NCBI GenBank assembly: GCA_902768785.1
Contig: CACXMM010000002.1
Span: 1 to 64,000 of the forward strand
Direction: 5' to 3'
DNA length: 64,000 nt
DNA from: an uncultured Prevotellaceae bacterium
GTDB taxonomy: Bacteria; Bacteroidota; Bacteroidia; Bacteroidales; Bacteroidaceae
Positions 9,067-39,594 of the stretch are shown piece after piece. The notes beneath the pieces are model-generated. The model was not told where the DNA came from. It ran no database searches and worked only from the letters and a program-made list of their open reading frames with translations. The position numbers were made by a program, and so were the translations under genes. Each line of letters starts with the position of its first letter. Positions within the stretch are counted from its first letter, which is position 1.

Positions 9067-9171
9067 TCTGCACACTTTGTGCAAGGGCTCTGCACAGTTT
9101 GTGCAACGGGTCTGCACAGTTTGTGCAAACGTCATGCACAAGTTGTGCAACAGTCTTGCGCAAAAAGTGGA
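9067..9171. repeat. Five-unit 22-bp-period palindrome array (TGCACA/TGTGCA)
   Basis: In the 418-bp gap between htrA and the helicase, a 15-bp palindrome TGCACA-nnn-TGTGCA occurs at 9069, 9091, 9113 and 9135, with a decayed fifth copy at 9157, spaced exactly 22 bp. On the minus strand each unit reads as a 17-nt core such as TTGCACAAACTGTGCAG plus a 5-nt variable spacer (for example acccg, agccc, atcta). No gene is visible here. Apart from the htrA promoter I see nothing else in the gap. Confidence 0.9.
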
Positions 9172-9220
9172 AAAGGGAATGTGAAAAAGAAGAGTTTGTG
9201 AAACGAAGAGAGAGTGTTTG

Positions 9221-10945
9221 TTATGAAAGTTTCTTGAGGCGTCGTTCTGCTTCGGGATATTCAGGACAGAGCTGGAGTGCTTTTCGGTAGTTGGCGATGG
9301 CAGCCTCCTTCATGTGTTCTTTCTCACACTCTTTTCCCAGCAGCACATATTCAACAGCCAGTTTCTTGAGGAAAGCGTCGCGTTGCCGTTTCTCTTCGGA
9401 GAGCCGCCGGTTCTCTTCACGCAGTTGGTTGATGGTGTTCAGCTTTCTCCTGATCAACCGTTTCACTACAGGTTTCTCGATGTCGTATCGGCTGTGTATG
9501 GCCAGGAAGAAATTCTTCAGGAAGGTATCATAGTCACCCGAATCAAAGGCTTTGACAGCATCATGATATTCCTTGTCAGCCTTGCTCTCTGACAGGGCTG
9601 TGCCAATGATGTTACGGTCGTTGTAATGACGGGCGAAGTTCTTGACTTCAGCTCTCACAAACACATCTTCTCTTCGTATGGCTTCCTTCAAAGAGATACC
9701 TTCAAGTGAAGTGCAACGACTGAGTGCCACATAAGTCTGCCCTCCAGCAAACACCCCTCCTGTAAAGTCAATGGTGACTCTCTTGAATGTCAGTCCTTGA
9801 CTCTTGTGTACCGTAATAGCCCATGCCAATCGGATGGGGAATTGTATATACACCCCGATTTCTTCTTCTTCAATTTTTTGTTCCTTTTCATTGAATGTGT
9901 AACGTACATTACTCCATCTGTCGCGTTCTACTTCGAACTCATCCCCATCTTCTGTGACCACATATAGGATTTGTGCCTCCTCATCAATGGCTTCGATAAC
10001 GCCCAAGGTACCATTAACCCATCTGCGATCCATGTCATTCTTAATGAATATAATCTGAGCTCCCGGCTTCACCAGAAGATCGATGGGGGTAGGGAGGCTG
10101 CTCTCTGGGAAATCACCTTTCACCTCTCCAATGAAATGTGTGGAGGTGCCCGGTAATTGTTCGAGATGTTTTTCGTTTATATAGTCAACGGTATCTCTTC
10201 TTGTTGACAGCGTAATAGACAATTCAGAACCTTTCGTGTCAAACGATGTACCAACTCGTGCATTCAGCATGTTCAAGTCGGGCGTAGAGATTTCACTTGT
10301 TCGGATATGGTCAAGAATACTGATAAAAAGCGGATCACTTTGACGATACACTTTTCTCAGCTCAATGCTTACCAATTGAAGCTCTCGAAACACACGAGCA
10401 TCAAAGAAAAAGGCAGAAGGGTAGAAAGGGCGTAAGAACTGTCTGTCTTCTTCCTTCACGACAGGTTCCAACTGGTATATGTCACCTACCAGCAAAAGCT
10501 GTTTTCCACCAAAGGGCTGCCGCATGTTCCGGTTGTAGATGCGTAACACCTTGTCGATAAAGTCGATGATGTCAGCACGAACCATAGATATCTCGTCAAT
10601 GATAATAAGTTCAACCTCTCTCAGCAACTTCCGTTTTTCACCATTATATTTAAGTGTGTCACGAATATTGCGGGCATTATATCTTGTGTCATTAGGGAGT
10701 AGGGGGTGAAAGGGCAGCTTAAAGAAGCTATGCAGGGTAGCGCCGCCCACATTGATAGCTGCTATACCTGTAGGTGCTAACACCACATGCTTTTTCTTGG
10801 TGTGTTCACAGATATAACGGAGGAACGTTGATTTACCCGTCCCCGCTTTTCCTGTTAGGAATAGCGAGCGACGGGTATATTGGATAATCTGAAGTGCCTG
10901 TTGCAGTTCAGTATTGTCTAAATCAATCGGTTCGTTAGAGATCAT
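9221..10945 (-). CDS. PIF1/RecD-type DNA helicase
   Basis: A 574-aa superfamily 1 helicase. Walker A is GKAGTGKSTF (about residue 35), Walker B is IIIDEISMV, and the C-terminal helicase motifs include VNGTLGVIEAI and AITVHKSQGLTF followed by VALSRCTSLEG. Such enzymes unwind DNA at forks and structured DNA. After the helicase core comes a charged coiled-coil-like stretch, and the end (AAIANYRKALQLCPEYPEAE) resembles one TPR unit. ATG at 10945 is chosen over a TTG one codon upstream; it overlaps the end of the PBP gene by 11 bp, implying translational coupling. Confidence 0.88.
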   Translation of the reverse strand: MISNEPIDLDNTELQQALQIIQYTRRSLFLTGKAGTGKSTFLRYICEHTKKKHVVLAPTGIAAINVGGATLHSFFKLPFHPLLPNDTRYNARNIRDTLKYNGEKRKLLREVELIIIDEISMVRADIIDFIDKVLRIYNRNMRQPFGGKQLLLVGDIYQLEPVVKEEDRQFLRPFYPSAFFFDARVFRELQLVSIELRKVYRQSDPLFISILDHIRTSEISTPDLNMLNARVGTSFDTKGSELSITLSTRRDTVDYINEKHLEQLPGTSTHFIGEVKGDFPESSLPTPIDLLVKPGAQIIFIKNDMDRRWVNGTLGVIEAIDEEAQILYVVTEDGDEFEVERDRWSNVRYTFNEKEQKIEEEEIGVYIQFPIRLAWAITVHKSQGLTFKRVTIDFTGGVFAGGQTYVALSRCTSLEGISLKEAIRREDVFVRAEVKNFARHYNDRNIIGTALSESKADKEYHDAVKAFDSGDYDTFLKNFFLAIHSRYDIEKPVVKRLIRRKLNTINQLREENRRLSEEKRQRDAFLKKLAVEYVLLGKECEKEHMKEAAIANYRKALQLCPEYPEAERRLKKLS

Positions 10946-13475
10946 CAAACGTCACGGGTTGTTCTTTTACTTTCTCGTTCTTGTCTTCTTTCTTTTGTGC
11001 CTCTTCGTCCAGAGGATCGATGACTTCGCCTTCCACAGGTTCAAGAATGGGGTTACCGAACTCGTCAAGCATCACCTCATCTTCCATGATACCCACACTG
11101 TCGAGATCGGCATTATCATTGTTCGATGGAACATAGCCAGAGCAGTTGTAGAGACTCTCTGTGATATCTTTGTCAACAGGTTTCTTAAAGTGACCGTGAT
11201 ATTTCTGGAAGGTCTTGTCTGTCATCACTGACTGGAGGAAATAGCCGCAGACCGGTAGGGCCGTGCGACTGCCTTGTCCTAAAGCTCCTGTCCTGAAGTG
11301 GATACTGCGATATTCGCCGCCGACCCAGGCACCGCAAACGAGGTTAGGACTGATGCACATGAACCATGCGTCAGAATGGTTATTTGACGTTCCAGTCTTT
11401 CCACCGAAATCGGTATCCTGGGCACCGTTGATGTAGCCCCACAGACTTTGAGAGGTTCCACCGGGTTCCCGTAAGCCGCCCATCATCATCTGCTGCATCA
11501 GGAATGCACTTTTATAAGGTATCACTTGTTTCTCTTCGGTAGAGGAGGTATAGACCTCCCGACCATCCTTATCCACAATCTTAGTCACCAGTACCGGTTC
11601 CACATGCCGACCGTCATGAGAGATACAGCAATAGGCGTTGACCATCTCCAACAGAGTGACATCGGATGATCCCAACGCCAGTGAGGGCTCATCATCCAGT
11701 ACACTGTGGATACCCATGTCATGGGCTGTAGCAATGATGTTCTTGATTCCCATCTCCTGTCCTAACCTGACAGCCACGGAATTGATGCTCTTCGCAAAGG
11801 CACTCTTCAAGGGGAGCGAGTCACCCGAGAAACGTCCATTGGCGTTGCCTGGCGTCCAGTTGATGATCTTGTTTTTCTTCTTGTCAAACACCTCCATGCT
11901 GATATACTCATCACGACGTTTGTCGCAGGGGGTGAGACCTTGGTTCATAGCTTCCGTATAGACGAACAGTTTAAAGGTCGAACCAGGCTGTCGCATGGCT
12001 GTCACCTTGTCGTATTTCCATGAGTTGAAATCGATGTCACCTACCCATGCTTTCACATGACCGTTCTGCGGTTCCATGGCCACAAAGGAGCAGTGCATGA
12101 AATGCACCATGTAGCGGATGGAATCCATGGTTGACATCTCTGCCTCAATCGTTCCCTTTTCATAGTCGAACAGTTTCACGGTATGCGGACGGTTCAATTC
12201 TGCGATGATGGAGTCAGGATCATGAGGATACTTTGCCTCCAATTTCTTGTAAAGAGGGAGTTTTTTGGCAATTCCTTCAATGAAGCCGGGAATCACCCGA
12301 TGGTTCTCATCCTGCCAAGGCTCTTCCTTGCCCCAATGGCTGTTGAAGTTTTGTTGAACCTGGCGCATCTGCTTGGTGACCGCTGCCTCGGCATATTTCT
12401 GCATACGGGTGTCGATGGTGGTATAGATACGCAGTCCGCTACTATACAAATCATAGCCGTTCTCCGTACACCAGTCATCGAGATAATTGGACACGGCCTC
12501 CCGGAAATACTGCGCTTCCCCGTCATAATTCGTCTCCACACTGTATTCCAGCTTGATGTCCAACTTCTTCAGGGAGTCACCCTCAGCAGCAGTGATCTCG
12601 TTCTTCCTTACCAAATTGTCGATCACCACATTGCGACGTTTCTTACAGTTCTCAGGATTAGAGATCGGATTATAATAGGTAGTGGCCTTCAACATTCCCA
12701 CCAGTACGGCGGCCTGCTCTGTTTTCAGCTTCGCCGGTGTGGTGTTGAAATAGGTCTTACAGGCTGTCTTGATACCAAAGGCATTGGATCCGAAATCCAC
12801 GGTGTTGGCATACATTGTGAGGATATCTTCCTTACTGAAGATTGTTTCTAGCTTCGTGGCAATAATCCACTCCTTGGTCTTCACGATGAGGATCTTCAAT
12901 CCCGGCACCTTTCCCAGCAAACCGGTGGAGTAGCGTGTCCTGACACGGAACATATTCTTGGCCAGCTGCTGTGTGATGGTAGAAGCACCACGGGCATCAT
13001 GGTGGAACAAGGCATCCTTGGCTGCACTGAATAGGCCAATGGGGTCTATACCCTTATGCTGGTAGAAACGCTCATCCTCCGTATCGATTAACACTTTCCA
13101 GAACACGGGATTCACCTCATTGTATTTCACTGGTGTCCTGTTTTCGTTGAAATACTTACCGATTTCCTTCCCATCGGCACTGTAGATGACCGATGCCTCA
13201 CTGGTTTGCGGATCCCTGATACCAGAGAAGTAACCCGGTGACTTTCCAAAGAGCCAGAGGAAATTGATGTCAACCATTCCCAGATAGATGACAAACAGTA
13301 GGATAAAGGATATCAGTCCCACAATCAGCTTGATGTACCAGGCACGACCCTTATACAAGGATTTGTACCAGGGCCAGATGGAACATAGTCTGTGCCAGAG
13401 ACGGGAGAAGAATCCCCGTTTTTCCTTATGACTGGAGTGGTGATGATGTCTGTGATGATGATGTTCTTGATGCAT
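10935..13475 (-). CDS. Bifunctional penicillin-binding protein 1A
   Basis: An 846-aa class A PBP that polymerises and cross-links peptidoglycan. A His-rich cytoplasmic tail (about 10 His in the first 20 residues) precedes one membrane segment near 47-70. The glycosyltransferase domain has EDERFYQHKGID and GASTITQQLAKN. The transpeptidase has the SxxK serine in PGSTFKLFVY, SIN in AKSINSVAV and KTG in GGKTGTSNN. The C-terminal tail is acidic. A -7 element lies about 43 bp upstream. The downstream helicase overlaps it by 11 bp. Confidence 0.92.
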   Translation of the reverse strand: MHQEHHHHRHHHHSSHKEKRGFFSRLWHRLCSIWPWYKSLYKGRAWYIKLIVGLISFILLFVIYLGMVDINFLWLFGKSPGYFSGIRDPQTSEASVIYSADGKEIGKYFNENRTPVKYNEVNPVFWKVLIDTEDERFYQHKGIDPIGLFSAAKDALFHHDARGASTITQQLAKNMFRVRTRYSTGLLGKVPGLKILIVKTKEWIIATKLETIFSKEDILTMYANTVDFGSNAFGIKTACKTYFNTTPAKLKTEQAAVLVGMLKATTYYNPISNPENCKKRRNVVIDNLVRKNEITAAEGDSLKKLDIKLEYSVETNYDGEAQYFREAVSNYLDDWCTENGYDLYSSGLRIYTTIDTRMQKYAEAAVTKQMRQVQQNFNSHWGKEEPWQDENHRVIPGFIEGIAKKLPLYKKLEAKYPHDPDSIIAELNRPHTVKLFDYEKGTIEAEMSTMDSIRYMVHFMHCSFVAMEPQNGHVKAWVGDIDFNSWKYDKVTAMRQPGSTFKLFVYTEAMNQGLTPCDKRRDEYISMEVFDKKKNKIINWTPGNANGRFSGDSLPLKSAFAKSINSVAVRLGQEMGIKNIIATAHDMGIHSVLDDEPSLALGSSDVTLLEMVNAYCCISHDGRHVEPVLVTKIVDKDGREVYTSSTEEKQVIPYKSAFLMQQMMMGGLREPGGTSQSLWGYINGAQDTDFGGKTGTSNNHSDAWFMCISPNLVCGAWVGGEYRSIHFRTGALGQGSRTALPVCGYFLQSVMTDKTFQKYHGHFKKPVDKDITESLYNCSGYVPSNNDNADLDSVGIMEDEVMLDEFGNPILEPVEGEVIDPLDEEAQKKEDKNEKVKEQPVTFDDL

Positions 13476-13517
13476 ACCTATACGGTTATTTATAGCTTAT
13501 TCCATTGAAAAACAATG

Positions 13518-13525
13518 CAAAAATA
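13518..13525 (-). promoter_or_regulatory. Candidate -7 element for the PBP1A gene
   Basis: TATTTTTG on the minus strand, about 43 bp before the ATG. No TTTG at the expected -33 distance, so the call is tentative. Confidence 0.45.
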
Positions 13526-13541
13526 GTAAAAAAGACGGGGA

Positions 13542-14477
13542 TTATATCACTTCAGTGATATATTTTATGATTTCTTTAATATTATCGTCAAGGGAAGTTG
13601 TCTTTTCCGAGTGGAGTGTCGTGGAGAGGTCGAACCAACGGATACTCGTGTCGCGTTTGAACCAGGTGAGCTGCTTCCTGCAGTAGCGGCGCGTATTACC
13701 TTTGATACGCTCTACTGCTTCCTCCAAAGACCAGAGACCATCCATGTAAGCGAACAGTTCCTTGTATCCAACGGTATTCAAACTCTGGAAATCACGTCGG
13801 GCATACCATCGTCTGGCCTCGTCTAATAATCCACTGGCCATCATCTCATCCACCCGTTTGTTGATCCGCTGGTAGAGTTCCTCACGCTGTCGTGTCAACC
13901 CGATCTTCACGATCTTGAAGGGACGCTCCTTTTTCTGTCCTGTACGAAGGGATGTGAATGTCTGCCCTGTCGTATGAATGATTTCCAAAGCATGGATCAC
14001 CCTGCGATAGTTGTTTTTATCTACGATCGCAAAATAGTCAGGATCCAAAGTCTGAAGCTCTTTGCACAATGCGTCAAGACCTTCTTCTTCGAGTCTGCGT
14101 TTCATCAGGGTACGTTCCTCGTCACTGACAGTGGGGAGGTCGGCCAGTCCGTCGCATACAGCATCGATGTACATCATACTGCCGCCACTCATCAATGCGA
14201 TGGGGGATGATAGGAACTGCTGGTCAAGGAGTTTGAGTACCTGACTCTCGAACATCGATGCGTTGTAATAGTCACCGATGTCCAACACCTCCACCATCTC
14301 GTGTCTTACTCTCTGTCTTTGTGCAAGGGTAGGGGTGGCCGTGCCGATGGGGATCCCTTTATAGATCTGCCTGGAGTCGGCATTGATGACGGGGATATGA
14401 AAATACTCGGCCACACCGAGGCACAATTCTGTCTTGCCTACACCCGTGGGGCCGAGTATTACTACCAATGTGTTCAT
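13542..14477 (-). CDS. miaA: tRNA dimethylallyltransferase
   Basis: A 311-aa enzyme that adds dimethylallyl to A37 of tRNAs reading UNN codons. The P-loop is GPTGVGKTEL at residues 9-18; DSRQIYKGIPIGTA and the RRVIHALEI segment are family hallmarks, and the C-terminus has NTRRYCRKQLTWFKRD. Length is normal. It follows lpxA by 2 bp at the end of the lpxD-lpxC/fabZ-lpxA operon. Bacteroidales often carry two miaA genes; only this one is in the window. Confidence 0.93.
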   Translation of the reverse strand: MNTLVVILGPTGVGKTELCLGVAEYFHIPVINADSRQIYKGIPIGTATPTLAQRQRVRHEMVEVLDIGDYYNASMFESQVLKLLDQQFLSSPIALMSGGSMMYIDAVCDGLADLPTVSDEERTLMKRRLEEEGLDALCKELQTLDPDYFAIVDKNNYRRVIHALEIIHTTGQTFTSLRTGQKKERPFKIVKIGLTRQREELYQRINKRVDEMMASGLLDEARRWYARRDFQSLNTVGYKELFAYMDGLWSLEEAVERIKGNTRRYCRKQLTWFKRDTSIRWFDLSTTLHSEKTTSLDDNIKEIIKYITEVI

Positions 14478-14479
14478 TG

Positions 14480-15250
14480 TCAGCGGATAATGCCTCTCTT
14501 TGAACTCATGACGAAATCGATGATATACTGAATCTCCGGCGTGATCGGAAGGTTCTTCTTGATCTCCTCCACTCCTTCGGCCAACACACCCTTGCTGTAT
14601 AACAGACGATAGGCGTCATGGATCAGGGTGATGGTCTCATTACTGAACCCCCTGCGACGGAGTCCAATCAGGTTGACACCAGCATAACGGATAGGTTCCT
14701 TGCCTGCAATGATATACGGTGGAATATCCTGACTGGTTCGGCTGCCTCCCTGAATCATCACATAACCGCCCACACGGATGAACTGGTGGAACAGAACGGT
14801 GGCAGAGATGATGGCATTGTCATCAACAACCACCTCACCGGCAAACTTGGTACTGTTACCAATGATACATCCATTACCGATCACACAGTCGTGGGCGATA
14901 TGCATGTTCTCCATCAACAAGTTGTTCGAACCGACGATTGTTGTTCCCTTACTGGCAGTACCTCTTGAGATGGTCACATTCTCACGGATACTGTTGTTGT
15001 CACCGATCTCACAGATCGAGTCCTCACCCTGGAACTTCAGATCCTGGGGTTTTGTACTGATGGAAGCACCAGGCATGAATTCATTCCCGTTGCCGATGCG
15101 TGCACCGTAATTGATCGTGACACTGTTCTGCATCACATTGTTATCACCAATCACTGTATTCCGGTCGATGTAGCAGAAGGGACCGATCACGTTGTTCTCA
15201 CCAAGCTTTGCCTCGGGATGAACAAATGCTAATGGACTAATCTGGTTCAT
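14480..15250 (-). CDS. lpxA: UDP-N-acetylglucosamine O-acyltransferase
   Basis: A 256-aa cytoplasmic acyltransferase that starts lipid A synthesis. The protein is a run of hexapeptide (left-handed beta-helix) repeats such as VIGPFCYID and IGNGCIIGNST, with the catalytic His in the MENMHIAHDCVIGN segment, then the helical C-terminal domain (GLRRRGFSNETI). It is 5 bp downstream of the lpxC/fabZ fusion, as is common in Bacteroidales. Confidence 0.95.
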   Translation of the reverse strand: MNQISPLAFVHPEAKLGENNVIGPFCYIDRNTVIGDNNVMQNSVTINYGARIGNGNEFMPGASISTKPQDLKFQGEDSICEIGDNNSIRENVTISRGTASKGTTIVGSNNLLMENMHIAHDCVIGNGCIIGNSTKFAGEVVVDDNAIISATVLFHQFIRVGGYVMIQGGSRTSQDIPPYIIAGKEPIRYAGVNLIGLRRRGFSNETITLIHDAYRLLYSKGVLAEGVEEIKKNLPITPEIQYIIDFVMSSKRGIIR

Positions 15251-15255
15251 ATACT

Positions 15256-16641: not shown

Positions 16642-16658
16642 ATATGATTGATTTTGAT

Positions 16659-17702
16659 TTATTCTTCTTTTTGTAATTTCTTCAACTCATCCACCTCTTT
16701 CTGGAGAGTGTTCAGCTGCTTGTAAATATCTGGTAACTTTCTAAATAGTACGGATGACTTGAAGAAATTCTTCGGTTCCATAGCTGGACTGCCAATCAGA
16801 CTCTCGTTGCCTTTCACACTGCTGTTCACACCACACTGGGCACCCACAAAGGTCTTGTCACCTACGGTGATGTGCCCAGCAAAACCGGCCTGACCGCCAA
16901 ACATACACCAACTGCCGATCTTGGCACTTCCTGCGATACCCACTTGGGCCGACATCACCGTGTTCTCACCAACTTCCACATTGTGTGCAATCTGTACGAG
17001 GTTGTCGAGCTTGGCACCCTTGTGGATGATCGTACTGCCCATAGTAGAGCGATCGACACAGGTGTTGGCACCGATCTCCACATGGTCTTCAATGATTACG
17101 ATACCTATCTGCGGAATCTTGTCATATCCCTCCGTACTCGGGGCGAAACCGAAGCCGTCGGCACCAATCACCGATCCGGAATGAATGGTCACGTCATTGC
17201 CCAACCGACAGTCGTGATAGATGGAGACATTGGGGTAGATCAGACAGGAGTCACCCAATGTGGCTCCGTCCTCAATCACCACATGGGGATAGATTTGTGT
17301 GTTATCACCAATCGTCACCCCTTCGCCGATAAAAGCAAAGGCACCGATATAGCAGTTCTTACCGATCTTGGCAGTGGGGGAGATAAAGGCCAGCGGGTCA
17401 ATACCTGTCTTCTTGGGCTTCATGCTCTCATACAACTGCAACAGTTTGGCAACGCTCTCGTAGGCGTTCTTCACCCTGATGAGCGTAGCACTTACGGGAT
17501 GTTCCAAAACCAAATCCTCGTTCACCAGAACGATGCTCGATTGGGTCTCATAGAGATAATGGGTATATTTGGGATTCGAAAGGAACGAGATTGCTCCGGC
17601 CTTACCTTCCTCTATTTTGGCAAAAGTGTTGATGGTGGTATTTTCGTCACCTTCCACACGTCCCTGTATGAACTCGGCTATTTGTTTTGCGCTAAATTCC
17701 AT
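16659..17702 (-). CDS. lpxD: UDP-3-O-(3-hydroxyacyl)glucosamine N-acyltransferase
   Basis: A 347-aa trimeric acyltransferase, third step of lipid A synthesis. The N-terminal uridine-binding domain is followed by hexapeptide repeats (for example [16 protein letters not shown] and [11 protein letters not shown]) with the catalytic His in [14 protein letters not shown]. The C-terminus is a short coiled coil ([20 protein letters not shown]). It is first in the lpxD-lpxC/fabZ-lpxA-miaA operon, behind a -7 element. Confidence 0.95.
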
Positions 17703-17724
17703 GTCTTTTATATTATAATTCGTG

Positions 17725-17732
17725 CAAAGTTA
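17725..17732 (-). promoter_or_regulatory. Candidate -7 element for the lpx operon
   Basis: TAACTTTG on the minus strand, 23 bp before the lpxD ATG. No convincing TTTG at -33. Confidence 0.45.
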
Positions 17733-17740
17733 CTGAAAAT

Positions 17741-19788: not shown

Positions 19789-19802
19789 GGGCTATAATTT
19801 TT

Positions 19803-19837
19803 AAGTTCAAAGTTCAATGATCAAAGTTCAAAGAACT
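19803..19837 (-). repeat. Heptamer tandem repeat between prfA and pyrF
   Basis: On the plus strand: AAGTTCA, AAGTTCA, ATGATCA, AAGTTCA, AAGAACT. Five 7-bp units fill most of the 48-bp spacer from the prfA stop to 15 bp before the pyrF start. Confidence 0.75.
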
Positions 19838-26267: not shown

Positions 26268-26268
26268 A

Positions 26269-29238: not shown

Positions 29239-29245
29239 TTCAACA

Positions 29246-30670: not shown

Positions 30671-30747
30671 ATTCAATGACGGCGATAACGCCTAAATGAC
30701 TTAATTAATCCAGATCATCGTGGAATGAGAACGATTTTTCATTTCTC

Positions 30748-33700
30748 TCACTTAACCACGATTTTTTTTCCGTTCACGATGTACAGACCCTTCTTGACCT
30801 GTCCCTTCGTTACTGATACGCGACGACCTTGGAGGTCGTATGCCTTGTCTGTTGTTCCCTTACCATTTACTTCATTAATACCTGTTGCAATTCCTGGGAA
30901 AGGATTATCATTAACAATGAAGGGGATAAACTCCTGACCAGCTCCAAGTTCCGAAGGCAGATATACATAACCAGCTGCTAAGATTTCATTCTTTTTATAG
31001 AAACCTATATCGTTCGTATTAGCCAATACATAGACCACTTCGGCTGTTTCATCACTAATCTTCAGCTTGTTTACACGAGGTTTAGCAACTCCTTCTCCAG
31101 AAACGGTCAGTTTAACCGCACCACCATTCTCTTTATGGAGCAGATAAGGCTCACCACCCTTCAAAGCCGCTACATGAGAAATGACAGCTTCCTTTTCGCC
31201 TTCGACTTCTTCAACCTTTGCAACGATGAATGCCTCAAGTCCATCGGGCATTTTTACATCAGTATAGGGAACGATGGTGCTCCATCCTGATTCGTCAATG
31301 GTCACATCGAACGTTGAAGGATGTACCAAGCGATATAAACGTGGCAAGGTTGCCTTGGTTGACTCTGCCTCATAACCGCCAAACGAAGATGACATCATGC
31401 TCTTGCCGTAGCGGATGACATTCTTCGCAACGGTTGTATTGCCGTCTTTCTCGCGGTCGGCAAAGTTGAACTTAATCTGCACGCTGTCGTTCTTTCCAGC
31501 AGGGAAGGTAAATGTTACCTGACAGCTGTCGTTGATATTCTCCAGTTTACCTGTCTTCAGTTTGGCTCCGCCTCCCATACCAGGTATGCTGCCACCACCG
31601 AAGCCACCGCCATCAGTGTCGGAAATGTAAAGATAGGTCATCTTGTAGTCGGCGGTTCTACCGGTCTGTAAGCTCCACTTGCCATTGGTCTGCTCCAAAT
31701 TAAGAATCATAGCATCGTCGGGCACCTCGGTAATCTTACCATCTTCACCAATGGTGATGTTACTGCTATTGCTGCTACCACCGAACATCGACATGATGCC
31801 ACTGCCACCGCTGCCGCCAACCTTACGGTTGAGCACCTTGGGCTTATCGTCGATGGTTGCCACGATGAGCAGTTTGTCATCCTTTTTCAGCTGACTGGCA
31901 TTCGTCACCAGTTCGTAAACACCTTCCATGGCTCCTGCAGGGAGTACGCGGCGGTCTCTTACGTCAAGGTTGAACTTACGCTTCATCTTAATGGTATCAC
32001 CTTTCTCGTTTTCAGTAGTAGGCTTTTTTAATAGAACGGGAGCATTTACAGTTACGGTAATGATGCCCTCCATCTTGGGAACCAATACACTGTCGGTTTC
32101 GCTGCTGTGTACCCATTCGGCAAAGTCGGTATCACTGAGCTTCAGTGATGTCATAGGATACTTTTTGTTATCTGCGTTAGTGGGTGTAACCAGTGTTCCA
32201 CCGAACTTATCCGTTATCTTGAAAAGCTCATCAGCTTGCTTCGTCTCACCATAATAGAGGATGACGGTCTCGGTGATGAGGTTGCGGGTGTGCTCCTGCA
32301 TGTAGTTGACACGCGGCATCTTGACAGTTCTCTTGTCCTCCTGGTTTTCATTCTGGTTGTTATTGCCACCTGTGCCAATGCCGAGACCGCTGAACATCGA
32401 CATCATGTCCTGGTCCTCGGAATACTCCAGCGGACCATATACTGTTACCCAATCGCCTACACTGAGACTGTCGGCTGTGATGTCGGCCAACTTCAGTCCG
32501 CGACCGTTAATGACAGACAGTGAATCGCGGTCCACGCCATTGTCGCTGATAGCATAGGTAACGGTTCCTTCCTCCTGTTCGCCCATGAACATGCTAAACA
32601 ATGAGCTCATATCGAATCCTCCAGTACTCGAGCCCATGCCTTCCATCATGCCAGAGAACATACCCATCATGTCTTCCATGTCTTCCATGCCAGCCATCAT
32701 GCCACCTACACTCGATACAATACCCTTGACGAAGTAGCAGGTACCGTTGGCAGTCTCCTCTTCATGTCCTGTTTCCTTCGCATACTCAATTGCTTCGGCT
32801 ACGGTGAAGGGCTTTGTCCGACTGCCTTTTTTGCTTGTATCATCGATACGCAGGATGTAGGAAGTGAGGTAATCATCGTAGTCGTCTGATGCATCCAATT
32901 GGGCATAGATGCGCACTGTGCCGCGTTTCCCCTTCAATGTTACTTTACCTGTGGTAGCATTAACCGTGGCCAAATCTGTATTGCCGCTCCAGTATTTAAT
33001 GGTACCGGCGTCTGCCTCTGCTACTGTTGCCGTGGGTGAAACAAATGCACTTGCCTTTTGTACATCAGCCTCATAATCGTGTTCTGGGAAACGGAGCGTT
33101 GGGTCTGGCTTGTCGGTTCTCACCTTCCTGAAGAAAGCTGTCTTCGTAGCAGCGATGTCTGATTGTATTTGATTATCCTTGGTATCTTCTATCATTTCCC
33201 ATGTGCTTCCGCCCATGAAAGCCATGAAGCCAGAGGCTTGTTTAACGCCGACATGGAAACTGGAATCGGTATGCTCATTAACTTGAACATTCATTTGGAG
33301 CATGTCTCTGTCGAAAGAGAACTGTCGCTCCGATTTGTACTGTATGTAGCCGACACGCAAGGTCTTATTTGAGTTGCGCAGATACTTGGTGTTGTTATTT
33401 TCGTCCTTGCGATAGAATTGATACTTGGCATCGCTACGGTCAACCGTCCATGTGATGGTGTCTCCTACGCCGCTGGTAAGGCGGTCTAACTCTTCTTTCA
33501 GCGTTACAGACATTGCAGCAGGTGATTCGTCATCTGCCGGGTTGTTCTTCATAGCGTTCGAGGATGTCAGGTCAACGATGACAGTCGTATCACCTGTTGC
33601 AAGATCAGCAGGATTTTGCACCCGCTTCCACTTCACAAACGTCAATTTGACCCGCTTGAAAAGGGTTATGTTGCTACCAGAGTTTTTATCAGGGTTGGCA

Positions 33701-34245
33701 TAAGCGCGATAACCATTGCCGCTCTTTTCAAATTTGAGATAATAATTATAACTATCGGTATAATACAACTTACCACCGTTGCTGCCATAATCTACAAAAT
33801 CAAAGTAGGTTGTATAAGTATAAGGATCAGTATTAGCATAACTTACGTCATAAAAATGTTCACCATTCTCAAAAACGCCATAAAGTTTTCCGCCTTGCTG
33901 TCCTTCATACCCCGACTCACACTGCCCTTCAAATGAATAATAGCTCTTATTTTCATATTCGTCATAAGGCATTGTCAATGTCCACCTGTTTTTTTCAGGT
34001 GCATTTGCAATTCTATCGTCGCTGATGGTTACAGGGGTTGAAAATACCATTCCCGTTTGTGACCCATGTTCACTTGACAGAGCGATTTTCTTATCCACAT
34101 CTACCAAAAGCACTTGGTCGCCTGCATTTACCTCCGAAAGGTCGTTTACCTTTACCCATTCATATACTGCTGCATGGGTAATTCCCCCTCCCGCTATGAG
34201 TGCCCAAAGCAGAAGTATGGTTTTCATTAAATTAGCTTTCTTCAT
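30748..34245 (-). CDS. Large secreted protein with Met/Phe-rich inserts and type IX-like tail
   Basis: A 1165-aa protein starting MKKANLMKTILLLWALIAGGGITHA (signal peptide). A bacterial Ig-like (BIG2) domain lies near 405-455 (TDLATVNATTGKVTLKGKRG) and an OB-like DUF6359-type segment from about 475. The last ~35 residues (LQGRRVSVTKGQVKKGLYIV and the basic end) resemble a type A sorting domain. Short Met-Phe motifs recur: GFMAFMGG (~341), MMGMFSGMMEGMG (~526), LFSMFMG (~550), MMSMFSG (~614), IMSMFGG (~817), with a dense Met cluster at ~515-555 and Gly-rich loops. It sits 23 bp after the RND pump gene and 77 bp before the TolC-type gene. Function not known; metal binding is speculation. Confidence 0.8.
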   Translation of the reverse strand: MKKANLMKTILLLWALIAGGGITHAAVYEWVKVNDLSEVNAGDQVLLVDVDKKIALSSEHGSQTGMVFSTPVTISDDRIANAPEKNRWTLTMPYDEYENKSYYSFEGQCESGYEGQQGGKLYGVFENGEHFYDVSYANTDPYTYTTYFDFVDYGSNGGKLYYTDSYNYYLKFEKSGNGYRAYANPDKNSGSNITLFKRVKLTFVKWKRVQNPADLATGDTTVIVDLTSSNAMKNNPADDESPAAMSVTLKEELDRLTSGVGDTITWTVDRSDAKYQFYRKDENNNTKYLRNSNKTLRVGYIQYKSERQFSFDRDMLQMNVQVNEHTDSSFHVGVKQASGFMAFMGGSTWEMIEDTKDNQIQSDIAATKTAFFRKVRTDKPDPTLRFPEHDYEADVQKASAFVSPTATVAEADAGTIKYWSGNTDLATVNATTGKVTLKGKRGTVRIYAQLDASDDYDDYLTSYILRIDDTSKKGSRTKPFTVAEAIEYAKETGHEEETANGTCYFVKGIVSSVGGMMAGMEDMEDMMGMFSGMMEGMGSSTGGFDMSSLFSMFMGEQEEGTVTYAISDNGVDRDSLSVINGRGLKLADITADSLSVGDWVTVYGPLEYSEDQDMMSMFSGLGIGTGGNNNQNENQEDKRTVKMPRVNYMQEHTRNLITETVILYYGETKQADELFKITDKFGGTLVTPTNADNKKYPMTSLKLSDTDFAEWVHSSETDSVLVPKMEGIITVTVNAPVLLKKPTTENEKGDTIKMKRKFNLDVRDRRVLPAGAMEGVYELVTNASQLKKDDKLLIVATIDDKPKVLNRKVGGSGGSGIMSMFGGSSNSSNITIGEDGKITEVPDDAMILNLEQTNGKWSLQTGRTADYKMTYLYISDTDGGGFGGGSIPGMGGGAKLKTGKLENINDSCQVTFTFPAGKNDSVQIKFNFADREKDGNTTVAKNVIRYGKSMMSSSFGGYEAESTKATLPRLYRLVHPSTFDVTIDESGWSTIVPYTDVKMPDGLEAFIVAKVEEVEGEKEAVISHVAALKGGEPYLLHKENGGAVKLTVSGEGVAKPRVNKLKISDETAEVVYVLANTNDIGFYKKNEILAAGYVYLPSELGAGQEFIPFIVNDNPFPGIATGINEVNGKGTTDKAYDLQGRRVSVTKGQVKKGLYIVNGKKIVVK

Positions 34246-34268
34246 ATTCAATGTAATTTAGTTATTAA

Positions 34269-37200
34269 TTATTCTTGAGTTTTTTCTTCTATCGTAGTTT
34301 CTTCCACAGCTGCTTCTACTGTTTCCACAGCTACTTCCTTACCCTGATACTTCTCGTGTAATCCTTGGAATACAATGAAGAAGACGGGAACGACGAAGAG
34401 CAGGGCGACTGTTCCTACCGACATACCGCCCACAACGCCAAGGGCGAGGGCACGGTTACCATTGGCACCGGCACCACCCTCGATAATAAGCGGAATCATA
34501 CCTGCAATCATCGTCAGTACCGTCATCAGAATGGGGCGCAGACGTTCCTTACAAGCCTCGAAGGCTGCATCGCGGATGCTCATGCCCTGGGCACGGCGCT
34601 CGGAAGCGAACTCCGTGATGAGGATGGCGGTCTTCGACAACAGACCAATCAGCATGATGACACCCGTTTGAAGGTAGATGTTGTTATCCATACCCGGCAG
34701 ATGGGCCAGTGATCCCAAATAGGCAAACACGAAGGCTCCCATCAGTCCGAAGGGTACTGAAAGCAGCACAGCCCATGGGGTGAACCAAGAGTTATAGAGT
34801 GAGGCCAGGATGAGGTAGATCAGGATTACACATATTATATATATAAGGGCGGTGGCATTGGAACCGCTTGCCTCTTCCAACTCACGTGACATACCACTGT
34901 ACTCATAACTGTAGCCATTTGGCATGGTCTCCTTGAACACTTCGGCAATCACCTTGTGGGCGTCACCCTCGGTATATCCGCCGGCAGCCTGCACAAAGCA
35001 GGTGATGCTCTGGAACAGGTTGAAGTGCTCAACACTCGATGCACCGACGATCTCCTTCAGTGTGACGAACTCAGACATAGGAGCCATCTTTCCACCCCGC
35101 ACCTTGACAAAGATATTGTTGAGTGACGAGGGGTCGAGACGGTACTCTGGTGAGGCACTTGCCATGATGCGATATACCTTACCGAACTGGTTGAAGTTAC
35201 CCACATACGAGCCGCCGCAATATGCACCTAACGTCTTCAATACAGAAGCGGGTGAGACACCAGCACGGTCGCACTGGGTGGCATCCACTTCGACCTGATA
35301 TTTCGGGAAACGCTCTGAATAGCTGGTCATGGCCATGCTGATTTCCGGACGTTCACCCAGTTTGGCCAGGAAGTTATTGGCCAGTTTGGCAAACTCCGAC
35401 AGGTCACCGTCGTTCAGATCCTGCAGTACCAGGTTCACGCTGTTGTTGGAACCGTAGCCCGGCACCTGCGGCAACTGGAAGGGCATTACCTGCACATTCT
35501 TGATTTCCTTGCAGGCGAAGTACAGACGACCGATCACCAGATCAACGTAGTGATTGAAGCCTTCACGCTCCTCCCATGTCTTCAGACGGATGATCATTGT
35601 GGCATAGTTCGAGCCAGAGCCCGACATCATACCATAACCGCAGGCCGTGGCAAAGCTCTCCATCTCGGGAATCTCCTTTACCTTTTCCTCCACCTTCTTC
35701 ACAATCTCACGTGTCTCATGAAGCGTGGTACCCTCCGGTGCACGGATTTCAGCAAGGATCACACCCTGGTCCTCCTGAGGAACGAGGCCCGACGGCAGGT
35801 TCTTCATGAAGAAGATAAGGAGAACAGCAGCTACAGCCAACAGGGTCCATGCCAGAACAGGACGTTTGATGAATTTCTGGACACTCTTGGAATACTTCTT
35901 GTAGATGGCGTTATAGCTGGTGGTATAGGCTTTCTTCGTATAATAGGTCAGGTTCTTGCGCTCGCTTTCCTTCTCGGTCACCTTCAGCATGATGGCACAG
36001 AGGGCAGGGCAGAGCGTCAGGGCTGATACGCACGACAGACCAACAGCAGAGGCGATCGTCACACCGAACTGGGTGAAGAACGAGCCCGACGTGCCAGGCA
36101 TGAAGGCAACTGGGATAAACACAGCCATGAATACAAGGGTACACGAGACGACAGCTACTGACACATCGCTCATGGCCTCGCGAGTAGCCTGCTTCGCGTC
36201 ACTGATGCCATTCTCCATCTTAGCCATCACGGCCTCGACCACCACAATGGCATCATCGACCACCGTTCCGATGGCCAGCACGAGCGCGAAGAGCGTGAGG
36301 ATGTTGAGCGAGAAGCCTGCCAGCGACACAATGGCAAAGGTTCCCAATAGTGATACGATAATAGATATTGAGGGGATGATGGTGGCCTTGAAGTTCTGCA
36401 GGAAGAAGAACACCACAAGAATCACCAGGATGATGGCGATGATGAGCGTCTCCACCACATTGCCGATGGCAGCATAGAGGAAGTCGTCGGAGGTTTCGAG
36501 CTTCACGAATTCCAGTCCGGCAGGCATCAGGGGCTTCAGCTCCTCATAGAGCTTATCGATGCGGGCGTTCACCTCGGTGGCGTTGGCGCCTGGGGCCTGG
36601 AACACCATGAAGATGGTACCGGGCTTACCCCCGATGTTGGAGATGAAGTTGTAGCTCATGGCACCGATCTCCACGTCGGCCACATCACTCAGGTGCAGCA
36701 TGTGTCCGCCATCGCTCGTTCGCAGCACGATATCGTTGAACTCCTCGATGGTTTTCAGCGTACCCTTATACTCCATGGTATATTGGTAGTTGTTCTCTGA
36801 CTGGGCACCTAAAGAACCCGTAGCAGAAACGAAACTTTGTCCGCCAATGGCTGAAAATACGTCGTTGGGCTCCAATCCGTACTGTGCCATCACATCAGGC
36901 TTCATCCAGATACGCAGCGCATAAGTATTACCAAGCGACATCACATCGCCCACACCGGTAATACGCATCAGACGGGGTTTCAGGTTAATATCGATGTAGT
37001 TGGCTACGAAATCATCATCATACTTACCGTCAGCACTGCGAAGGGCACCAATCTGCAGGATATTACTCTGCATCTTAAATACCTGAACACCAACCCTCGT
37101 CACATCAGCAGGCAACATAGCCGTGGCACGTGTCACACGGTTCTGCACGTTCACTGCTGCCAAGTCGGGGTCGGTTCCGGCTTTGAAATAAACCACAATA

Positions 37201-37469
37201 CTGACGTCACCCGACGATGATGCCGAGCTGGTCATGTATGTCATGTCGGGCACACCGTTGATGGCCTCCTCCAACGGCTGCACCACCGACTTCATAATTG
37301 TATTGGCATCAGCACCCGTATAGGTGGTTGACACACGTACGGTTGGCGGTGCGATGTTGGGATATTGCTCGATGGGTAGTGTTGACATGCAGATATAACC
37401 TACCAGAGCAATCACAATAGAGATGGCGCACGCCATCACATATCTGTTGATGAAAATATTGTTCTTCAT
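34269..37469 (-). CDS. RND multidrug efflux pump, inner membrane (HAE1/AcrB-like)
   Basis: A 1066-aa proton-driven transporter with the usual 12 membrane segments and two large periplasmic loops. The proton-relay pair is in GTVVDDAIVVVEAV (TM4), and FMPGTSGSFFTQFG and GLLSKTAILITEFA are conserved in the family. The N-terminus (FINRYVMACAISIVIALVG) fits the HAE1 branch for drugs or other hydrophobic substrates. The tail is Glu-rich. It follows the adaptor gene after an octamer-repeat spacer. Confidence 0.95.
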   Translation of the reverse strand: MKNNIFINRYVMACAISIVIALVGYICMSTLPIEQYPNIAPPTVRVSTTYTGADANTIMKSVVQPLEEAINGVPDMTYMTSSASSSGDVSIVVYFKAGTDPDLAAVNVQNRVTRATAMLPADVTRVGVQVFKMQSNILQIGALRSADGKYDDDFVANYIDINLKPRLMRITGVGDVMSLGNTYALRIWMKPDVMAQYGLEPNDVFSAIGGQSFVSATGSLGAQSENNYQYTMEYKGTLKTIEEFNDIVLRTSDGGHMLHLSDVADVEIGAMSYNFISNIGGKPGTIFMVFQAPGANATEVNARIDKLYEELKPLMPAGLEFVKLETSDDFLYAAIGNVVETLIIAIILVILVVFFFLQNFKATIIPSISIIVSLLGTFAIVSLAGFSLNILTLFALVLAIGTVVDDAIVVVEAVMAKMENGISDAKQATREAMSDVSVAVVSCTLVFMAVFIPVAFMPGTSGSFFTQFGVTIASAVGLSCVSALTLCPALCAIMLKVTEKESERKNLTYYTKKAYTTSYNAIYKKYSKSVQKFIKRPVLAWTLLAVAAVLLIFFMKNLPSGLVPQEDQGVILAEIRAPEGTTLHETREIVKKVEEKVKEIPEMESFATACGYGMMSGSGSNYATMIIRLKTWEEREGFNHYVDLVIGRLYFACKEIKNVQVMPFQLPQVPGYGSNNSVNLVLQDLNDGDLSEFAKLANNFLAKLGERPEISMAMTSYSERFPKYQVEVDATQCDRAGVSPASVLKTLGAYCGGSYVGNFNQFGKVYRIMASASPEYRLDPSSLNNIFVKVRGGKMAPMSEFVTLKEIVGASSVEHFNLFQSITCFVQAAGGYTEGDAHKVIAEVFKETMPNGYSYEYSGMSRELEEASGSNATALIYIICVILIYLILASLYNSWFTPWAVLLSVPFGLMGAFVFAYLGSLAHLPGMDNNIYLQTGVIMLIGLLSKTAILITEFASERRAQGMSIRDAAFEACKERLRPILMTVLTMIAGMIPLIIEGGAGANGNRALALGVVGGMSVGTVALLFVVPVFFIVFQGLHEKYQGKEVAVETVEAAVEETTIEEKTQE

Positions 37470-37486
37470 TAAATATTTTATTTTTT

Positions 37487-37534
37487 CGATATAACGAAAT
37501 AACGAAATAACGATATGTCGAAATAACGTTATAA
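37487..37534 (-). repeat. Octamer tandem repeat between efflux adaptor and pump genes
   Basis: Six plus-strand 8-bp units: CGATATAA, CGAAATAA, CGAAATAA, CGATATGT, CGAAATAA, CGTTATAA. They occupy most of the 79-bp spacer. Confidence 0.8.
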
Positions 37535-37548
37535 CAACGATTTAACGA

Positions 37549-38715
37549 CTATTCTGCTGCTGGAGAAGGGAACAGAACCCGCTGTCCTTCCTGAACATTA
37601 TTGGCCCCAACGGAGACGATCTTGTCGCCGACATTCAAGCCGCTCGTGACGATGACATCCTTACCATTACCAGTATTGATCGTGGTCACAGTGATGGCCT
37701 GAGCCGTACTGTCAGCCTTCACCCTGTAAACTAAGGACTTATCCTGCAAACGTACAACAGCAGTCTGAGGAATCACCATCACGGCCTTTCGGGAAATAGG
37801 CAGCACCACCGTACCCTGCACACCGGAGAACAGATGACCATCGGGGTTGGGGAACGATGCCTTTGCACCCAGTGAGCCCGTAGCGGCATCTACCACACCT
37901 GTCAGACTGGTGATGCGCCCCTTGTGGGGATACTCTGTACCGTTCTTCATGACAAACGTCACTTCTGGAAGCGCAGCGATGTGTTTTGCCTTGTCGCTCT
38001 GTGTCAAGCCCGACTGCACCTGCGCCTCGATGATGGCCTCTGTCACTGAGAACTCTGCGTCCATGGTTGTGTTACCGCTGAGGATCGTGAGGCTTACGGC
38101 AGGCGATACCTGGTCGCCAGGACGTACCAGTATCTCACCGATCACACCCGTTACGGGGGCCGTGATGGTGCAGAATCCGAGGTTCACACGGGCACGGTTC
38201 ACAGCCGACTGTGCCTGTGTAACGGATGCCTTGGCCTGGCTGATGGCAGCTAATGCCTGATTGTAGTTATTCCTTGAGTTTTCCAACATATAACTGCTCA
38301 CGATCTTTTTATCGAACAAATTCTTGTTGCTCTCAAACTCCAACTTGGCACTGTTCGCTTGTGCTTGAGCGGCTGTCAGGTTGGCTTGTGCTGCCTGGAG
38401 GTTGGCACGGGCGGCTTCTACTTCATGCTGGGCATTACGTGAGTCGATGACAAACAGCGTCTGTCCTTTGCTAACCCGCTGACCTTCGGTCACGCAGATC
38501 CTCATCAGCTGACCGCTCACTTGAGGGGTGATCGTTACATCAGACTGTCCCTTTAACTTGGCACTGAACTTCATCGGAAGCTCGATGTCTGATTTTTGAA
38601 TGGTTATTGTTTCGAATGATGATGGTGTTTCCTTAGGTATGTCTAATCCGCATCCTGTCAGTCCTACGATCATGGTACCGAGCACCAAACCCCATTGAAT
38701 AGATTTCTTTTTCAT
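37549..38715 (-). CDS. RND efflux periplasmic adaptor (membrane fusion lipoprotein)
   Basis: A 388-aa adaptor linking pump and outer membrane channel. Lipobox IVGLTGCGLD, a biotinyl-lipoyl half (KGQTLFVIDSRNA), a long coiled-coil hairpin (about 95-170, ANLQAAQANLTAAQAQ), and the second lipoyl half (TAPVTGVIGEILVRPGD), then the beta-barrel part. First gene of the operon adaptor, pump, 1165-aa protein, channel, DUF4421-like. Confidence 0.93.
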   Translation of the reverse strand: MKKKSIQWGLVLGTMIVGLTGCGLDIPKETPSSFETITIQKSDIELPMKFSAKLKGQSDVTITPQVSGQLMRICVTEGQRVSKGQTLFVIDSRNAQHEVEAARANLQAAQANLTAAQAQANSAKLEFESNKNLFDKKIVSSYMLENSRNNYNQALAAISQAKASVTQAQSAVNRARVNLGFCTITAPVTGVIGEILVRPGDQVSPAVSLTILSGNTTMDAEFSVTEAIIEAQVQSGLTQSDKAKHIAALPEVTFVMKNGTEYPHKGRITSLTGVVDAATGSLGAKASFPNPDGHLFSGVQGTVVLPISRKAVMVIPQTAVVRLQDKSLVYRVKADSTAQAITVTTINTGNGKDVIVTSGLNVGDKIVSVGANNVQEGQRVLFPSPAAE

Positions 38716-38757
38716 TTCAAATATGATTATTTAGTTGTTAATTCCGTTAATATTTGG

Positions 38758-38765
38758 CAAAGATA
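38758..38765 (-). promoter_or_regulatory. Candidate -7 element for the efflux operon
   Basis: TATCTTTG on the minus strand, 42 bp before the adaptor ATG. No clear -33 TTTG. No adjacent regulator gene is seen. Confidence 0.45.
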
Positions 38766-38951
38766 CCACATATTTTGTTAATTCTATTTACCATACCTCT
38801 TAAAAAAACTTAAAGTCTGGATTTAATTGAGTTTTCCATGTTGGAGTAAACGAATAGAGTAGATTTTAAAATGTTAAACAAACTGACAGTGAATAATGCA
38901 ATTCCTTCCTTTGAATAGTTTTTACGTTTTAACTCAGATTAACTCAATTCT

Positions 38952-39006
38952 TGGCCATTTGGGCGAACAACTGACCTTTTGGTCGAAAAAACGGCCAAAA
39001 AACGCA
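38952..39006. repeat. Three-unit 20-bp-period repeat
   Basis: Related 15-mers start at 38952, 38972 and 38992: TGGCCATTTGGGCGA, TGACCTTTTGGTCGA, CGGCCAAAAAACGCA. The middle one contains a perfect GACC-TTTT-GGTC hairpin. It lies in the 1.2-kb gene-free region 38716-39921. Confidence 0.6.
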
Positions 39007-39047
39007 ATTTCGCAAAGTATTGATAATGAGACTGTTAGTAAAATCGG

Positions 39048-39180
39048 GCATTTTTAAGCTCACGAAAACGGCGTTTTTAGGGGGTAAAACCATAGTTTTG
39101 AGGCTCCAAAACAACGTTTTTAGGTGGTAAAAACACTGTTTTTAGGAAGCAAAAGGACTATAAAAACTTTTTTGGGGTGC
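39048..39180. repeat. 22-bp-period array of GTTTTTAGG/TAAAAAC palindromes
   Basis: Units start at 39048, 39070, 39092, 39114 and 39136, with a decayed one at 39158, exactly 22 bp apart. Each has a T-tract and an A-tract about 11 bp apart around a G-rich centre, for example TTTTTAGGGGGTAAAAC, TTTTGAGGCTCCAAAAC, TTTTAGGTGGTAAAAAC. Again a 17-nt core plus 5 variable bases. The last decayed unit runs into the adjoining 145-bp hairpin element at 39171. Confidence 0.88.
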
Positions 39181-39315
39181 CCTTACGGGCAGAAATCGAA
39201 CAAAATCTAAACAAAATCTAACATAATATATCCTCATAAAAGCAAGTCAATAACACAGGTATTTGTAAGATTTTGTTTAGATTTTGTTGGATTTCTCGCC
39301 GAAGGCGACCCAAAA
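39171..39315. repeat. 145-bp hairpin-forming element, copy 1 (MITE-like)
   Basis: Outer ends carry small hairpins: GCCC-TTAC-GGGC (39179-39190) and TCGCC-GAA-GGCGA (39296-39308). Inside them a perfect 21-bp inverted repeat pairs 39199-39219 with 39268-39288 (AACAAAATCTAAACAAAATC...). No coding capacity. A related element in the opposite orientation is at 59829-59947. Confidence 0.8.
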
Positions 39316-39352
39316 CCACATTCTAAAGTAAAAACCACACATTTTCGAAGGA

Positions 39353-39594
39353 GCGTCATCTACGGGTTGTTCCGAACGGCGTTATCACCCGTTCCGACGT
39401 CATCTATAGGGGGTAAAGTGACGGCGGAATGACCCGTAGATGACGGCGGAACGATAGTTAGAAACGTTAGGAACGACAGAAAGTAATCTTTCATTGACTT
39501 CAAAGTAACCTTTACTTGGGTTTAAAGTAACCTTTACTTGTATTCAAACCAGCCTTTACTTGCAAACCAAGTAGCCTTTACTTGCATCCCAATT
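39353..39594. repeat. Eleven-unit 22-bp-period array with two sequence families
   Basis: Units start every 22 bp from 39353 to 39573. The first five are built from CGTCATCTACGGGT / GACGGCGGAA elements; 39354-39374 and 39425-39445 form a 21-bp inverted repeat with two mismatches. The last five are copies of AAGTAACCTTTACTT or variants (39481, 39503, 39525, 39547, 39569), palindromes of 6-3-6 form, each 17-nt core followed by 5 variable bases (ggttt, tattc, caaac, catcc). No gene overlaps it. Confidence 0.88.

Follow-up and report, generated by a model that had tools for sequence, protein, structure and literature searches.

A 22-bp period common to intergenic repeat arrays of unlike sequence in Prevotella genomes

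Short tandem arrays of quite different sequence, all repeating at 22 bp, were found in the intergenic DNA of several Prevotella genomes. The starting point was a stretch of 64 000 nt from an uncultured Prevotellaceae bacterium (contig CACXMM010000002.1, positions 1–64 000; hereafter the window), in which an earlier note had picked out three arrays. These arrays are parts of multicopy, lineage-specific intergenic repeats, namely a small element, designated F1, and a composite element of ~730 bp. The observation was partly confirmed, being real and wider than first described and wrong in some details, and its interpretation was partly supported. As far as the literature search shows, this is a real and apparently unremarked regularity in objects of a known kind; the literature yielded no report of a 22-bp repeat class in Prevotella, subscription papers lying mostly outside the search. 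The repeats of the window are as follows.

9057..9172, no strand assigned: F1 array of five TGCACA-N3-TGTGCA-type cores, the last degenerate, with four clear 7-nt spacers.
38912..39643 (ends approximate), no strand assigned: composite dispersed element of ~730 bp, comprising arrays A and C2 and modules B and C1.
39060..39163, no strand assigned: module A, an array of about four AAAAC-N-GTTTT units (from Tandem Repeats Finder, TRF, and alignment).
39171..39315, no strand assigned: module B, an inverted repeat of ACAAAATCTAAACAAAATCTAAC and its complement, with small hairpins at the ends.
39353..39478, no strand assigned: module C1, a fold-back of GTTCCG/CGGAAC units, with 22-bp steps inside each arm.
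39480..39594, no strand assigned: module C2, five AAGTAA-N3-TTACTT-type units in exact 22-bp steps.

Lag-22 self-similarity was present at each of the three places that had been named (at 9067, 39072 and 39499), and over the whole window lag 22 was the only one of lags 10–60 to give three separate peaks of ≥42/66. When the 17 intergenic regions of ≥60 bp (4776 bp in total) were scanned at lags 15–44, arrays were detected only at lags 22 (three), 43 (one) and 44 (two). The cores of the F1 array, taken as 17-nt windows from 9068, 9090, 9112, 9134 and 9156, were separated by steps of 22, 22, 22 and 22, and TTTACTT/TTTCATT recurred in module C2 at 39489, 39511, 39533, 39555 and 39577. The claim that unit length does not drift held for these two arrays, but not for the second array, in which the core steps were about 21, 22 and 22; TRF gave its best score there at period 43, and alignment placed one base fewer than the majority in the window copy and in some others. 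What had been described as a single array at 39353–39594 consists of two modules, the fold-back at 39353–39478 and the array at 39480–39594, and the second and third arrays are not independent, as they recur together in one dispersed element. A unit of 17 + 5 nt is one possible cutting, but ~15 + 7 (a 6 + 3 + 6 near-palindrome plus 7 nt) was commoner, although itself not universal, and arrays usually held 3–5 units rather than 5–11. The arrays were rightly distinguished from clustered regularly interspaced short palindromic repeats (CRISPR), in which repeats of about 23–50 nt alternate with unique spacers of similar length; here the cores were 15–17 nt and the spacers 5–7 nt, mostly in 3–5 units, at dozens of loci.

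Intergenic DNA was scanned for tandem periods in samples from four genomes of one genus: the genome to which the window belongs (G000, hereafter the own genome; 400 kb, contigs 1 and 3), G006 (312 kb), G010 (279 kb) and G024 (400 kb), with genes called as the longest non-overlapping frames, uncurated. Lag-22 arrays numbered 20, 13, 5 and 16, respectively, modules of one composite in one intergenic region being taken separately, compared with a mean of 0.00–0.05 in randomised intergenic DNA (20 first-order Markov resamplings per set); the signal was thus clearly higher than in shuffled sequence. Lag 22 was the commonest of lags 17–40 in all four samples, and in G010 and G024 every other lag gave 0. 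Competing lags were seen in the own genome and in G006 (lag 21, nine arrays in each; lag 28, seven in each) and, at lag 24, in the own genome (six), because simple 7- and 8-bp repeats exist. In the window, tandem repeats of this kind were the 7-bp TGAAAGA (~9 copies) and the 8-bp AAGAATTG, GAAGAATT and CGAAATAA, at 49677–49738, 60703–60753, 2029–2064 and 37487–37535; 7-bp repeats also account for the lags in multiples of 7 in G006. Four lag-22 arrays were detected at the same threshold in 40 kb of G100 and none in 20 kb of G077. None was found in 60 kb from each of two outgroup genomes belonging to the same order or in the intergenic DNA of 100 kb of Escherichia coli, samples that are too small to prove restriction to the genus. 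In the four main samples every array midpoint lay outside the called frames of ≥150 aa.

The units that share this period were unlike in sequence, both within the own genome (TGCACAAAGTGTGCA, AAAAACNNNGTTTTT and AAGTAACCTTTACTT) and elsewhere (AAAAGATGACCTTTT in G010, AAATCAATTTGATTT and AAATTAATTTAATTT in G006, AACTTGACGCAAGTT in G024 and AAAACAGCCGCTTTT in G100). Dyad symmetry, tested against column permutations that preserved the period (p ≤ 0.05), was significant in 29 of 61 arrays (own genome 13/21, G006 9/14, G010 4/6, G100 2/4, G024 1/16); L316:1453 is an example of the arrays with other dyads. The feature common to the families is the 22-bp period, which, as first proposed, goes without shared sequence and which holds across families and species, and the palindrome is frequent but not universal.

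The arrays prefer gene 3′ ends and convergent gene pairs. Counted once per intergenic region over the four samples, lag-detected arrays occupied 21 convergent, 20 tandem and 3 divergent regions, compared with 75, 162 and 90 background regions of ≥150 bp (region-level Fisher p = 0.0008 for convergent and 0.0016 for divergent), and in 15 of the 20 tandem regions the array was nearer the 3′ end (p = 0.04). Counting by array, with composite modules counted apart, gave 27 convergent, 21 tandem and 4 divergent cases among the 52 of 57 lag-detected arrays that had two called neighbours (p = 3.6e-5 and 0.0016). For F1, 65 arrays of G000, G230 and G011 were considered, less 10 that overlapped a mechanical frame and one at a contig edge; the five F1 arrays of G332 and G405 lay outside the test. 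The F1 arrays were distributed as 22 convergent, 27 tandem and 5 divergent, against a background, drawn from the own genome only, of 15, 49 and 24 (p = 0.0029 and 0.010); a manual count of the 27 tandem cases placed 22 of them closer to the 3′ end (p = 0.0015). The F1 array of the window has the start of an HtrA-like gene on one side and the 3′ end of a PIF1-like helicase gene on the other, both assigned by Pfam.

7306..8802, minus strand: gene for an HtrA-like trypsin/PDZ protease, starting ~265 bp from the F1 array.
9221..10948, minus strand: gene for a PIF1-like helicase, with ~50 bp between its 3′ end and the F1 array.

F1, defined by the core TGCACA-N3-TGTGCA, gave at least 61 matches in the own genome, representing at least 36 distinct loci (40 of 47 candidates scored), and all 36 were taken for unit parsing. 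A strict pattern of two cores plus a half matched 30 times forward and 33 times in reverse, with no match for a reversed control. Four spacers were chained in 25 of the 36 arrays, five in 10 and six in one, which rules out a constant number of exactly four units; the outer spacers of the longer chains were usually degenerate. In G011, 13 of 14 F1 arrays had exactly three spacers, and those of G230 had 4–8, the outer ones again degenerate. At least seven own-genome arrays (L049, L074, L078, L223, L224, L226 and L228) carried shared spacers in the same order and are therefore regarded as old copies of one array; this subfamily rules out independence of F1 spacers between loci. For the remaining own-genome arrays, each set in whichever orientation and register matched better, the spacers agreed with the consensus at only 0.43–0.86, and a common origin for these arrays is likely. 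Long flanks were common to L034 and L035 (91 % over 35 bp). In G011, 13 arrays agreed over ~10 bp past both array ends (CATTTAACAGT adjoining TGTGCA), which makes the G011 element ~85 bp long and gives it inverted ends; among G011 F1, G000 F1 and the composite, shared inverted ends were seen only in G011 F1.

The range of F1 was narrow. Its two-core pattern occurred in five of 398 genomes of the genus, namely G000, G011, G230, G332 and G405 (the five counts being 74, 32, 15, 4 and 1 forward matches), and a scan of 84 980 species genomes, from which that of the window was perhaps omitted, returned 30 F1 stretches, all titled Prevotella or Prevotellaceae (UBA3294, SUG1619, AGR2160 and RUG030). 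A phage origin was also considered, and the two-core pattern gave 0 matches in viral contigs.

The composite was likewise dispersed. A query of 39040–39600 gave at least 74 matches in the own genome (3.41 Mb, 82 contigs), at least 16 of which spanned ≥480 of the 561 bp, the window copy included, the remainder being partial or second matches at the same place (40 of 99 candidates scored for both counts). In an alignment of 24 copies (21 from the own genome and three from G230, with ends taken from 11 rows) the order array A, inverted repeat B, fold-back C1, array C2 was kept. Module B matched itself on the opposite strand (query 132–276, minus-strand self match) and was also found alone at C16:53149–53307 of the own genome. 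Units of AAAACATAGGTTTT type in G006 resemble module A, and loci in G007 hold C1-like units. The neighbours of the window copy, both assigned by Pfam, are divergent.

37549..38715, minus strand: gene for an HlyD-type membrane fusion protein, to the left of the composite element.
39922..40785, plus strand: DUF5715 gene, right neighbour of the composite element.

Composite copies also lay within a few hundred bases of the ends of own-genome contigs 9, 28, 48, 44, 12, 43 and 18, where the repeats probably break the assembly. The 8-bp repeats CAGAGACT/CTCTGTGT were present at 39735–39816, 46360–46381 and 46425–46445 of the window, and sequence like them, together with CACGCAGAGTTAACGGAGTTAGCAGAG, stood beyond the right end of several composite copies. 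A short ACAAAATCTAA tandem at 59854–59879 of the window resembled module B.

Comparison with G230, a close relative in which proteins neighbouring the arrays were up to 100 % identical to those of G000, showed how the F1 arrays change. Five of its 15 F1 arrays (L189, L193, L194, L200 and L202) matched a G000 array in both the gene and the end of it at which they lie, for L202 the 5′ side; two (L190 and L196) were elsewhere in an otherwise orthologous stretch, and for eight the neighbours matched none of the fetched G000 array neighbourhoods, the rest of G000 lying outside the comparison. In the five orthologous pairs the arms were 94 % identical (238/252), compared with 62 % for the 7-nt spacers (91/147), 31/48 for the 3-nt centres and 54 % for the 40-bp flanks (215/400), the last figure being lowered by alignment without gaps; one pair, L045/L189, was poorly registered in its left part. 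In the pair L037 (2855–2961) and L202 (3093–3199) the arms were identical (48/48) and the flanks well kept (67/80), whilst only 15 of 28 spacer positions agreed, so that the spacers there change faster than plain intergenic DNA. G230 also has an array at the place of the window F1 array; there, sequence upstream of the HtrA-like gene has hardly changed, and the two genomes begin to diverge ~55 bp from the array. The two genes flanking it (window 7306–10948) were adjacent in both G000 and G230, with the array at the junction, and in other genomes of the genus HtrA-like and PIF1-like matches were far apart, e.g. ~200 kb on the single contig of G061. Two differences between the relatives were not clean insertions: the L050 array is within ~230 bp absent from G230, and the L196 array is within ~365 bp that replaces ~65 bp of G000. 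In the more distant G405 an F1 array was found between the same two genes as L045, with 53–63 % protein identity.

Fixed arms between changing spacers and flanks, present in both orientations, suggest that half-sites in the DNA are recognised in a sequence-specific way. Of the two origins first put forward for the period, a ruler of two helical turns or a process copying 22-nt units, arm conservation favours the ruler for the array at 9067. The explanation that we favour, with a probability of roughly 0.45, is that these are REP-like (repetitive extragenic palindromic) elements at transcript ends, with F1 arms bound by a dimeric protein, which spread in trans and whose recognised sequence has been replaced between lineages. 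A DNA-binding protein with sequence specificity, probably a dimer, would use each TGCACA/TGTGCA arm as a half-site; with a step of 22 bp, successive dimers would sit on about the same helix face, and three to five dimers might bind side by side on one F1 array. The elements would persist as REP-like sites acting in DNA topology, bidirectional termination or protection of messenger RNA (mRNA) 3′ ends and would spread through a trans-acting system, the two-turn geometry being kept while the recognised sequence changed in different lineages. Evidence consistent with this explanation comprises the exclusive period of 22 in G010 and G024 and its dominance in the other two samples, the dispersal, the narrow range of F1, the conservation of its arms, the bias towards 3′ ends and convergent pairs, the near-constant unit number within species and the subfamily with a shared spacer order.

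Several points weigh against this explanation. Dyad symmetry was significant in no more than 29 of 61 arrays and in one of 16 in G024; some arrays lie between divergent genes, the composite of the window among them as an exception to the location trend; and in the L037/L202 pair the spacers were less well kept than the flanks, which plain selection on the arms does not predict. No protein that binds the arrays was identified, and for a genome with several unrelated families one would have to suppose either several such proteins or a single one with no sequence preference. Strong, long fold-backs in five of 10 folded stretches make an RNA role possible. A broader proposal, which we hold tentatively, is that a 22-bp ruler operates throughout the genus. 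Either a conserved family of proteins or a copying process would make or maintain arrays of near-palindromic 22-bp units at gene ends whilst the unit sequence is repeatedly replaced, both between lineages and between families in one genome, and PINSR, a repeat described in Prevotella intermedia and discussed below, would belong to a class united by its geometry and not by sequence.

The arrays might instead be sites for a transposase or recombinase serving their own spread, as in miniature inverted-repeat transposable elements (MITEs), with selection against harmful insertions leaving them at gene ends. Discrete ends, with ~10 bp inverted outside 13 G011 arrays, an element size fixed per species, differences between G000 and G230 at otherwise orthologous places and a spacer order common to the copies of a subfamily would all fit such mobility, but target-site duplications in the 13 G011 arrays gave nothing convincing beyond permuted controls (best z ~4 in 2304 combinations, with unequal offsets). 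Nor was a Y1 transposase (IS200/IS605 or REP-associated tyrosine transposase, RAYT) found in the own genome, other transposase families not being searched. The gains and losses were not clean, ~230 and ~365 bp changing along with the array, and since at least five of the 15 arrays of G230 keep the gene end that they have in G000, movement has not been frequent. On balance self-mobility of this kind seems unlikely, though it deserves to be taken seriously.

A role in RNA, in which a fold-back in the 3′ untranslated region ends or protects messages, in both directions between convergent genes, and the period is a by-product of stacked hairpins, would agree with the 3′-end and convergent bias. 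Five of the 10 folded stretches gave z scores of −4.3 to −5.5 (two of these being the two strands of the window F1 array), but the other five reached only −1.2 to −2.6, and palindromic arms by themselves permit a long fold-back. Unit-level covariation was significant in G006 (p = 0.006), compared with p = 0.052 in the lag-detected arrays of the own genome and none in G010, G024 and G100; as it is significant only in G006, within-unit covariation was rejected as proof of hairpin pairing. In F1 the arms do not covary but stay invariant, and pairing between spacer positions is lower inside units than between them. No Rfam family reached the gathering score in the arrays; in the window only two transfer RNAs did so, and eight sub-threshold matches to eukaryotic microRNAs were returned, seven of them on the module B fold-back. 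We consider an RNA element a rather poor candidate.

Still less probable is that a copying or tandem-duplication process, by templated synthesis or duplication of fixed length, writes 22-nt units whatever their sequence, with any function secondary. Several unrelated units in one genome are all exactly 22, and some arrays (L131:17000 and L068:786) are runs of near-identical units, as such a process would give; however, the same unit number in most F1 arrays of a genome and the spacer order of the subfamily imply that those arrays were copied whole, and the arms show selection-like conservation. Ordinary slippage minisatellites with a meaningless period, for which the simple 7- and 8-bp repeats of the same genome might speak, are very improbable, as slippage would spread over periods and G010 and G024 have no other lag in the range 17–40. 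Plasmid iterons (R6K, pPS10 and RK2) are short sites with a spacing of about two helical turns, grouped at a single origin next to the gene for their initiator. Arrays bound by an initiator of this type were rejected as scarcely credible, despite the resemblance in step and unit number and one Rep3_N protein encoded in the own genome, since its sole match (C45:62460–62918) is not near F1 arrays (no listed F1 locus on C45, and the composite copy there ~23 kb away) and the Prevotella arrays occupy dozens of loci with no initiator (rep) gene alongside.

Intergenic repeats specific to a lineage are nothing unusual, whereas a 22-bp period that recurs independently of sequence in several species of one genus is out of the ordinary. 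Dispersed bacterial repeats are classed by sequence, and here unlike sequences agree in period to the exact base pair; they do so in several species, with tens of copies in each genome close to gene ends. Because the same period accompanies quite different sequences in the other Prevotella species sampled, the results suggest that Prevotella has something that produces or recognises DNA at intervals of 22 bases. A protein that read the period would be an unnamed chromosome- or transcript-end factor in a major genus of the gut and rumen; a process that wrote it would be an unfamiliar route to tandem DNA. In both cases the period offers a sequence-independent search rule for such elements in Prevotella genomes.

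The closest known kinds of element are REP elements, BrickBuilt and PINSR, which are compared here on the available portions of their descriptions. REP elements and the mosaic elements built from them (bacterial interspersed mosaic elements, BIMEs) are palindromic, extragenic and often between convergent genes; they bind DNA gyrase, integration host factor (IHF) and DNA polymerase I and have been described as mRNA stabilisers, whilst a role as specific terminators was later denied (PMC1525189). The arrays described here are similarly dispersed, extragenic and imperfectly palindromic (dyad significant in 29/61), and also favour gene ends and convergent pairs, but a fixed 22-bp array is absent from the available REP description (PMC1525189). 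Dispersal by a RAYT, as for REPs, was rejected for the own genome, in which PF01797 (TnpA-REP, Y1) had 0 matches, with control matches in five of 14 genomes.

The BrickBuilt MITE of Porphyromonas gingivalis is made of 23-nt units without spacers, from 1 to 22.8 units, between a leader and a tail with short terminal inverted repeats like those of ISPg elements (insertion sequences) of the IS5 family (PMC4596501). As far as described, it too is an intergenic multicopy element around a tandem short repeat in a Bacteroidales genome, and it differs from the Prevotella arrays in that these have a period of 22 and variable spacers of 5–7 nt.

PINSR, a non-coding intergenic sequence of 188 bp, numbers 177 copies in one P. 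intermedia strain and 184 in another; it is restricted to a single clade, its function is unknown, and it is described as lacking terminal inverted repeats (PMC4755523). Like the arrays described here it is intergenic, non-coding and lineage-specific; an inner period of 22 bp is absent from the available part of its description, and F1 and the composite differ from it in sequence. In G100 (two contigs of 1.97 and 0.71 Mb) a 189-bp dispersed repeat was found that holds an internal 22-bp array; the 40 kb sampled contained three full copies, all flanked by convergent genes, and a partial copy between divergent genes. From its length, setting and copy density, compared by description only, this repeat may be PINSR. 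The earlier statement that no named element has this form would need qualifying to that extent, PINSR being a possible member and BrickBuilt alike in kind, and the 22-bp period may explain the inner structure of PINSR.

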